A stretch of DNA of 54,934 nucleotides from Gammaproteobacteria bacterium (GTDB lineage Bacteria; Pseudomonadota; Gammaproteobacteria; SG8-11). This document shows positions 46,582 through 50,757 of the stretch, in pieces; position 1 is the first letter of the stretch; each line of letters opens with the position of its first letter. The position numbers were made by a program, and so were the translations under genes. The notes below the pieces were generated by a model. It was given only the letters and a program-made list of their open reading frames with translations. It did no database searches and was not told the DNA's origin. The DNA is taken from the NCBI GenBank assembly GCA_030610155.1, contig JAUWSG010000003.1, forward strand, positions 1-54,934. The letters run 5' to 3'.

Positions 46582-46956
46582 CTATTTGTTGTCGCCGCCC
46601 GATATCCATTTAATTGACTTTTCTAATTCATCGAAGGAAAAATTTTTAATTTCCGCGCTGACAAAGTGACTTGCAACATGCTCAGCAAACGCAGCTATCG
46701 GTGAATCAGTGACAAAGGCGATATGAGACACTTTTTTATGATGTTCTTTGATAAATTTTAAATGTGTTATTAATGCTGAAAATGAATCCCATCCGGGGAA
46801 TGCTTTTGTGTGAATTATGATGCCATTTAATTTTCCTGAAGTTTCAATATAGGGGTCAATTATCGCCGCGGCAGATATGAAGTCTTTTTCAGATAATTCT
46901 CCATCAGGCTCGAGGACGGCAATACTTTCAAGTTCGTTCAATTTTACAGTTAACAT
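46582..46956 (-). CDS. SpoIIAA-like (STAS/SEC14-type) domain protein
   Basis: A 124-residue soluble protein of the SpoIIAA-like family. It starts with a beta strand (LESIAVLEPDGELSEKDF), then has GIIIHTKAFPGWDSFSALI and HIAFVTDSPIAAFAEHVAS, and ends in a basic KWISGGDNK. Members are short alpha/beta proteins of unknown role that sit near stress or signalling genes. GGGAGA precedes the ATG. A second member of this family lies at 50374. Confidence 0.8.
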   Translation of the reverse strand: MLTVKLNELESIAVLEPDGELSEKDFISAAAIIDPYIETSGKLNGIIIHTKAFPGWDSFSALITHLKFIKEHHKKVSHIAFVTDSPIAAFAEHVASHFVSAEIKNFSFDELEKSIKWISGGDNK

Positions 46957-47759: not shown

Positions 47760-47819
47760 CATGCTCCATATATATTTATTAATTTAATCATATACTTAAT
47801 CTTCAAATCTCACTTAGTT

Positions 47820-47833
47820 CAACCTTATGGTTG
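47820..47833. promoter_or_regulatory. ArsR operator 1, CAACC-TTAT-GGTTG
   Basis: Five-base inverted arms around a four-base centre, overlapping the -35 box. The second operator is 41 bases downstream, about four helical turns, so both would lie on the same DNA face. Confidence 0.72.
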
Positions 47834-47859
47834 ACAATGTGTGAATGCGCATCTATATT
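47831..47859 (+). promoter_or_regulatory. Near-consensus sigma70 promoter of arsR
   Basis: TTGACA (47831-47836) and TATATT (47854-47859) are separated by exactly 17 bases. Initiation is predicted about 47866, beside the ATG at 47867, so the transcript should be leaderless. No Shine-Dalgarno is present. Confidence 0.8.
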
Positions 47860-47860
47860 A

Positions 47861-47872
47861 AACCATATGGTT
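47861..47872. promoter_or_regulatory. ArsR operator 2, AACCATATGGTT
   Basis: A perfect 12-bp palindrome that overlaps the predicted transcription start and contains the start codon of arsR. It shares AACC...GGTT half-sites with operator 1. Confidence 0.75.
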
Positions 47873-48214
47873 GAATTAATAGACAAGAGAGTCCTTTCTG
47901 AGATTTTAAAGGCGGTAAGCGATACAACACGTCGCTCGTTGTTAACACAACTCTGCCAGCAAGGACCAAGCCGTGTCACCGACCTGGCTAATTATTACGA
48001 CATGTCACTTAATGCAGTCTCGAAGCATATAAAGATTCTTGAAAAAGCAGGGTTAATCAAAAGAAGAAAAATAGGTAGAGCGCATTGGATTGAAGCAGAT
48101 TTAGAACTACTGGCTGAAGTAGAAGGTTGGTTTGCAGAGCTTAAATCTATATGGGAACTACGGCTGAACAAGCTGGATGAAATGCTAAATAATGGAGATC
48201 AACATCATGACTGA
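47867..48214 (+). CDS. ArsR-family transcriptional regulator
   Basis: A 115-residue winged-helix repressor: EILKAVSDTTRRSLLTQL, DLANYYDMSLNAVSKHIKIL (recognition helix) and KAGLIKRRKIGRAHWIEADL (wing). No cysteine or histidine motif of metal sensors is visible, so it is of the non-metal group that is often paired with SRPBCC proteins. The ATG at 47867 is used because the family starts there and because upstream in-frame starts lie in the -35 region. The stop overlaps the next gene by eight bases. Autoregulation by the two palindromes is likely. Confidence 0.9.
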   Translation: MVELIDKRVLSEILKAVSDTTRRSLLTQLCQQGPSRVTDLANYYDMSLNAVSKHIKILEKAGLIKRRKIGRAHWIEADLELLAEVEGWFAELKSIWELRLNKLDEMLNNGDQHHD

Positions 48215-50373: not shown

Positions 50374-50757
50374 ATGTCGATAGAATGGAAACTTGAAAAT
50401 AACAATCTGATTTTAATCCATGTTTCGGGCAAGCTCGGTATAGAGGAACATCGGCGGGTACTTTCAGAAATAGAATCCATCATACAGAAGGCAGGGAAAG
50501 TAAAACTCCTGATATTGTTAAATGATTTTGAAGGTTGGAAGAACCCTGAGGATTGGGAAAAGGTTGATGAGCTGGAAGGTGGTTCTGCAATGGATCGTAT
50601 GGATCCCCATATAACAAAATTTGCTATTGTCGGCGAAGAGCAATGGCGTGACAGGGTATCATTCTTTACTTTAAAAGGTTTGCGTCCGGTCCCTATTGAA
50701 TATTTCACAGAAGATCAGGAAGAGGCAGCCCGTCAGTGGCTGGATAGTGATTCATAA
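50374..50757 (+). CDS. SpoIIAA-like (STAS/SEC14-type) domain protein
   Basis: A 127-residue soluble protein of the SpoIIAA-like family, with LILIHVSGKLGIEEHRRVLS (11-30), LLILLNDFEGWKNPEDWEKV in the middle, and ITKFAIVGEEQWRDRVSFF before the C-terminal helix. The core NDFEGW resembles HTKAFPGW of the other member at 46582. AGAGGTGG precedes the ATG. It is a single gene between unrelated neighbours. Confidence 0.82.
   Translation: MSIEWKLENNNLILIHVSGKLGIEEHRRVLSEIESIIQKAGKVKLLILLNDFEGWKNPEDWEKVDELEGGSAMDRMDPHITKFAIVGEEQWRDRVSFFTLKGLRPVPIEYFTEDQEEAARQWLDSDS

Follow-up and report, generated by a model that had tools for sequence, protein, structure and literature searches.

A predicted leaderless, autorepressed arsR-AHSA1 operon with an operator apparently fused to the start codon of the regulator gene

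The window, the whole stretch of 54,934 nucleotides that was analysed, contains an ArsR/SmtB-family regulator gene followed directly by an AHSA1/SRPBCC gene (Table 1). The regulator scores 66.5 bits against the ArsR profile NF033788 (cut-off 55) and 40 bits against PF01022 (cut-off 22), which places it in the ArsR/SmtB winged-helix family; its solved relatives by profile are 3f6o and 7r22. Metal-sensing ArsR/SmtB regulators carry a cysteine pair in a sensor helix, within an ELCVCDL-type motif. This pair is absent from the regulator encoded here, in which the sensor-helix stretch reads RVTDLANYYDM and the sole cysteine is C30. With 50.5 bits against NF033789 (cut-off 100), the protein falls outside the SdpR subfamily as that profile defines it. 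Two ORFs of 124 and 127 amino acids (46582-46956, minus strand, and 50374-50757, plus strand) flank the locus on opposite strands, and by eye both resemble SpoIIAA/STAS-type proteins of one family.

Table 1. Positions of the genes and predicted regulatory features of the arsR-AHSA1 locus within the window
Feature	Position	Strand	Basis and remarks
Predicted operator O1, TTCAACCTTATGGTTGA	47818..47834	+	Dyad between 47826 and 47827; right half-site GGTTGACA forms the -35
-35 element TTGACA	47831..47836	+	Promoter scan
-10 element TATATT	47854..47859	+	Promoter scan; last base 7 nt ahead of the ATG
Predicted operator O2, TTAAACCATATGGTTGA	47858..47874	+	Sequence comparison; holds the start codon and codons 2-3
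Predicted transcription start, at the A of the ATG (leaderless mRNA)	47867	+	From the -10 distance and the absence of an SD motif
arsR, ArsR/SmtB-family regulator without metal-sensor cysteine pair, 115 aa	47867..48214	+	Profile matches, sequence reading
SD-like GGAG of the AHSA1 gene	48194..48197	+	Sequence reading; arsR has no such motif
AHSA1/SRPBCC gene, 141 aa	48207..48632	+	PF08327, 78.5 bits; 8-nt overlap with the end of arsR

The initial annotation described a TTGACA-17-TATATT promoter, a palindrome overlapping its -35 element and a second palindrome containing the start codon, and each of these was borne out. The promoter matches 11 of 12 consensus bases and is the best of 13 promoter-like sites in the 7 kb scanned; O1 runs into the TTGACA; and the ATG (47867-47869) lies inside O2. 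The spacing of the two palindromes, given there as 41 bp, measures 40 bp. O1 and O2 are direct copies with 88% identity, and O2 has its dyad axis exactly at the boundary of positions -1 and +1 relative to the ATG (47866/47867, AACCAT/ATGGTT, where the slash marks the axis). ATG has CAT as its reverse complement, which allows a start codon to form the core of its own operator. The pattern AACCN4GGTT occurs in the 55-kb window at O1 and O2 and at no other site. When three mismatches are allowed the motif is not significant in the window, giving four matches, a number reached by 13 of 100 shuffles; as the motif at a single locus is not rare in 55 kb, we claim significance from its conservation across homologues. 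O1 itself holds an ATG opening a five-codon ORF (ATG GTT GAC AAT GTG TGA, 47827-47844 in the window), and this mini-ORF was rejected as a feature, its ATG being missing from most homologues.

A protein search of the genome collection identified 16 loci in gammaproteobacterial assemblies. Fifteen of these close homologues have a complete start region, and all of the 15 show O1, a -35 built from the O1 right half-site, a -10 resembling TATAAT, O2 and the ATG in almost identical register, with varying spacer and flanks. O1 is kept in all 23 close relatives. A gene-blind DNA pattern search of 369 genomes of the class returned eight sites, against none for the reversed pattern, and all eight are the start of an ArsR gene followed by AHSA1.

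A regulator profile run over 369 genomes of the class and 398 of the phylum gave 162 distinct homologous ArsR genes, 150 of which have AHSA1 downstream and 160 of which have a usable start. The start was fixed as the ATG nearest the domain, a rule that undercounts if anything (84 of 160 genes are palindromic when any in-frame start is allowed), and the search profile included rows beginning MVE, which biases it slightly towards such members. At least seven of ten complementary pairs centred on the ATG (offset 0) are present in 70 of the 160 genes, compared with 0 to 12 genes at other offsets from -50 to +15; the second dyad peak, at -39/-40, is O1. An outer-pair test left out the three pairs involving the ATG and scored a dyad as strong when at least five of the seven outer pairs were complementary. 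By this measure, 79 of 160 ArsR starts are strong, made up of 20 of the 23 in close relatives and 59 of the 137 in distant ones. The corresponding figures are 2 of 139 for the AHSA1 starts at these loci, 2.1% for 5981 further ATGs and none of 18 for more distant ArsR genes. A motif search at other ArsR/SRPBCC pairs had been suggested in the initial annotation, and its outcome supports, as a prediction and for much of the family, the proposal made there that the same bases serve DNA recognition and translation start, with the dyad at the first base of the start codon.

The half-sites of these operators are of many types, including GGTTGA, GGTTAA, GGCTAA, GGTTCA, GCTTGA, GCCTAA, GGATAA and GGGTAA, and the upstream arm changes together with the coding arm across them. 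Covariation between the arms exceeds the expectation from column composition at pairs 4-12 in the full set of 160 genes, and at most of these pairs it still does so in 56 sequences thinned to below 60% identity. Where codon 2 encodes valine it is GTT in 70 of 71 genes; at the other positions of these genes, GTT accounts for 70 of 361 valine codons. O1 and O2 lie 39-41 bp apart in most double-operator members. Mapped onto a tree of poor resolution, the centred state requires 18 changes, eight of them forced, and has thus been gained or lost repeatedly.

The promoter stands in an equally regular relation to the ATG. With the best -35/-10 pair, the gap between the -10 and the ATG is exactly 7 nt in 62 of the 79 palindromic starts and 5-9 nt in 70 of them. 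The -10 ends 5-9 nt before the ATG in 102 of 160 ArsR genes overall, whereas this is true of only 7 of 139 AHSA1 starts. SD-like motifs precede 6 of 160 ArsR starts (2 of 79 palindromic, 4 of 81 other) and 111 of 139 AHSA1 starts. At the locus itself, the 7-nt gap fits transcription starting at the ATG and arsR lacks an SD motif. On the basis of the -10 gaps and the SD counts, the regulator gene is predicted to be leaderless, as the initial annotation had supposed, and its AHSA1 partner to be initiated in the ordinary way.

Were arsR instead an ordinary leadered gene, transcribed from further upstream or translated from the in-frame ATG at 47837 or TTG at 47831, the palindrome would hold an internal Met codon by chance. 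The longer frame is indeed open in the window, with no in-frame stop between 47831 and 47867. Translation from an upstream start codon had been named at the outset as evidence against a leaderless gene and was checked by sequence. Both upstream starts are unconserved, eight of 23 close relatives have an in-frame stop within 15 codons ahead of the ATG, and the upstream TTG is the -35 itself; the two starts were therefore rejected. Given also the family-wide position of the -10 at 7 nt from the ATG and the absence of SD-like motifs, a leadered arsR is highly unlikely.

Only about half of the family has the operator centred on the ATG, so fusion of operator and start codon is not essential to autoregulation. 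Many of the non-centred members carry a similar palindrome upstream, its left arm still over the -10 (TATATTTAACCAAATGGTTAAATATA in L089), and there the ATG follows about 10-28 nt downstream of the dyad. Two Rhizobium loci (L055 and L056) retain the operator with the ArsR start moved further downstream, and the operator is therefore separable from any translational role of those bases. This bears on the possibility that ATGGTTGAA is kept for leaderless initiation or RNA structure, its symmetry being a by-product. The early codons are AT-rich, and published work describes leaderless mRNAs as relying on a 5' AUG, both of which speak for a constraint at the level of translation. Such a constraint is nevertheless exceedingly unlikely to account for the palindrome: the upstream arm, which would be untranscribed in a leaderless gene, changes in step with the coding arm across several types of half-site; the palindrome is kept in L055, L056, L082 and L089 even though the gene starts elsewhere; and O1 repeats the sequence without being a start codon site. 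Folding of the dyad into an RNA hairpin was likewise rejected, since the absence of a spacer allows no stable loop and the left arm would not be transcribed if the mRNA is leaderless.

The half-sites also vary with the regulator. Counting the A of the ATG as 0, a lysine in the recognition helix occurs with G at +3 and C at -4 in 75 palindromic genes, with arginine in its place in two more, and a glutamine occurs with C at +3 and G at -4 in five of five palindromic genes. Lysine hence goes with ATGG half-sites and glutamine with ATGC half-sites; the single other combination, in L112, appears to be palindromic by coincidence. Residues four to six positions ahead of the recognition-helix lysine covary with +4, +6 and +7. 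The Lys/Gln and G/C changes coincide on the tree in about two events, one of them on well-supported branches, a comparison of low power with one to five independent pairs. The co-change of helix and half-site is only suggestive of ArsR as the binder of its own operator.

A search of the organism's own genome for the operator with one mismatch allowed gave 41 sites per strand, where the reversed pattern gave 16. More sites of some regulator could therefore exist, and the palindromes could belong to a regulator other than ArsR. The one-mismatch search, though, revealed no clear second regulon target in this genome, and the only exact match was O1. The motif moreover accompanies the gene pair across classes, phyla and domains, and its half-site bases covary with ArsR recognition-helix residues, which makes another regulator very unlikely. 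Autoregulation by ArsR, proposed from the outset, is supported as a prediction: the palindrome travels with the regulator gene, its arms covary, and residues of the helix follow the bases of the half-site.

We consider it highly probable that the locus is a leaderless, autorepressed arsR-AHSA1 operon in which the operator is fused to the start codon, with ArsR binding and the 5' ends predicted from sequence comparison. RNA polymerase carrying the housekeeping sigma factor would use TTGACA-17-TATATT and start at the A of the ATG, giving a leaderless mRNA. An ArsR dimer would bind the two copies of the AACCNNNNGGTT site, of which O1 covers the -35 and O2 adjoins the -10, its centre coinciding with the putative transcription start and the start codon. 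Bound ArsR would thus extend from the -35 to +1, blocking the core promoter elements and promoter opening and keeping expression of the operon low. Some signal, which may be a ligand that the SRPBCC partner handles, would lower the affinity of ArsR and bring about its release. Codons 2-4 largely mirror the -10/discriminator strand and change with recognition-helix specificity, and this specificity may be what causes their covariation.

Many bacteria appear to share the layout, and haloarchaea to share at least part of it. S. sojae, S. meliloti 1021 (on pSymA) and the actinobacterium Georgenia have both operators, with the ATG placed at the dyad of O2; the S. meliloti 1021 homologue (L213; NC_003037 position 106652, minus strand) reads GGTTGACA...CAATACTAAACCAT/ATGGTTGACGAA. 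Among nine haloarchaeal plasmid loci the start ATGGTTGA is invariant and the O2 left arm is clearly retained in five. The centre of haloarchaeal O1 (around ATTTAACTNNNAGGTTAAATA) is mostly at -35/-36. The right arm of this O1, TTAAATA or TTTAATA, occupies about -31 to -25, where transcription from the ATG would call for an archaeal TATA box. In bacteria the O1 right half-site may thus act as the -35 (GGTTGACA), and in haloarchaea as the TATA box (GGTTAAATA). We give an even chance to the broader reading, in which the operator pair and the start codon are one portable cassette spread across domains. O2 would lie on the start codon and transcription start, the O1 right half-site would supply the -35 or TATA box, and the spacing, about 40 bp in bacteria, would have been readjusted to 35-36 bp in haloarchaea. 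The regulator's first amino acids would then be set by the specificity of its own helix, a self-referential constraint on coding sequence and operator.

Rv2034 of M. tuberculosis is an ArsR autorepressor encoded in an operon with the polyketide_cyc2 gene Rv2035 and is insensitive to the metals tested (PMC3338718). The operon described here similarly has arsR directly followed by an SRPBCC-superfamily gene, with AHSA1 overlapping the end of arsR. The Rv2034 operator, CCGTAAGT-N4-ACTTACGG, is palindromic and lies near the start codon, though mostly upstream of it (footprint -30 to +3), and neither a second operator on the -35 nor a dyad at the start codon is reported (PMC3338718). The sites here are instead AACC-N4-GGTT, pointing to the same kind of system with another specificity. 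The nearest named ArsR subfamily is SdpR (NF033789), described as an autorepressor, and the one staphylococcal SdpR gene examined is preceded by an SD-like leader and lacks a dyad at the ATG.

Leaderless first genes are known from other autorepressed operons. In the acuR-acuI-dddL operon of Rhodobacter sphaeroides, the autorepressed first gene was demonstrated experimentally to yield a leaderless mRNA exactly from the AUG; SD motifs occur on the downstream genes only, the operator lies over the promoter, and the arrangement is conserved in other lineages (PMC3017554). The predicted leaderless arsR, the SD motif on its partner and the operator over the promoter resemble this organisation. AcuR, however, is a TetR-family protein, and its operator (TAATAGAC-N6-GTCTATTA) lies over the promoter, upstream of the start codon (PMC3017554). 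NreA of Mesorhizobium (nreAXY) is autorepressed from a compact promoter/operator of about 39 bp and its mRNA was shown to be leaderless, but it is a CsoR/RcnR-family protein with its operator in the -35/-10 spacer (PMC12724321). Lambda cI and Tn1721 tetR are further leaderless repressor genes (named in PMC3017554). Both belong to families unrelated to ArsR. To our knowledge, a start codon at the operator dyad has not been reported for either. A literature search covering few subscription journals, so that an earlier description is possible, found no publication on start-codon-centred ArsR operators, and most literature matches to the literal sequence appear to be primers carrying NdeI sites.

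Operators that overlap a start codon are usually known as single anecdotes. In this family the overlap recurs as a rule, in about half of 160 ArsR genes, and its geometry is exact: the dyad axis coincides with the predicted transcription start and the first base of the ATG. The early codons appear to read out the DNA specificity of the regulator, so that operators and starts of a large, mostly uncharacterised family should be predictable from sequence. Co-evolution of recognition helix and operator thereby becomes directly testable, start-codon annotation can be corrected via the conserved MV[EK], and the family offers a large number of candidate leaderless genes from Pseudomonadota.

Several members show further variations in the placement of the start. 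In L143 and L056 the operator ATG opens a tiny frame that ends at the real ArsR start (ATG GTT GAA TAA TG and ATG GGT GAA TAA ATG, respectively), possibly a leaderless three-codon ORF followed by re-initiation. A subfamily comprising L010, L099, L101, L102 and L103 has the palindrome centre about 6 nt ahead of the ATG, with outer inverted arms (e.g. TATAACC...GGTTATA around GTTATGGAAC) and a half-site overlapping the start codon. In L128 and L130 the dyad lies one base into the start codon (TTATGGTAAGTCA/TGACTTACCAATT) and the half-site is of a different type. Finally, in L079, L080 and L087 the start codon is the centre of a very long palindrome that is perfect or nearly so, such as ACTACTATTGTTAACCAT/ATGGTTAACAATAGTAGT in L080; four to six codons mirror the promoter in these genes, and the start codon of L079 is GTG.
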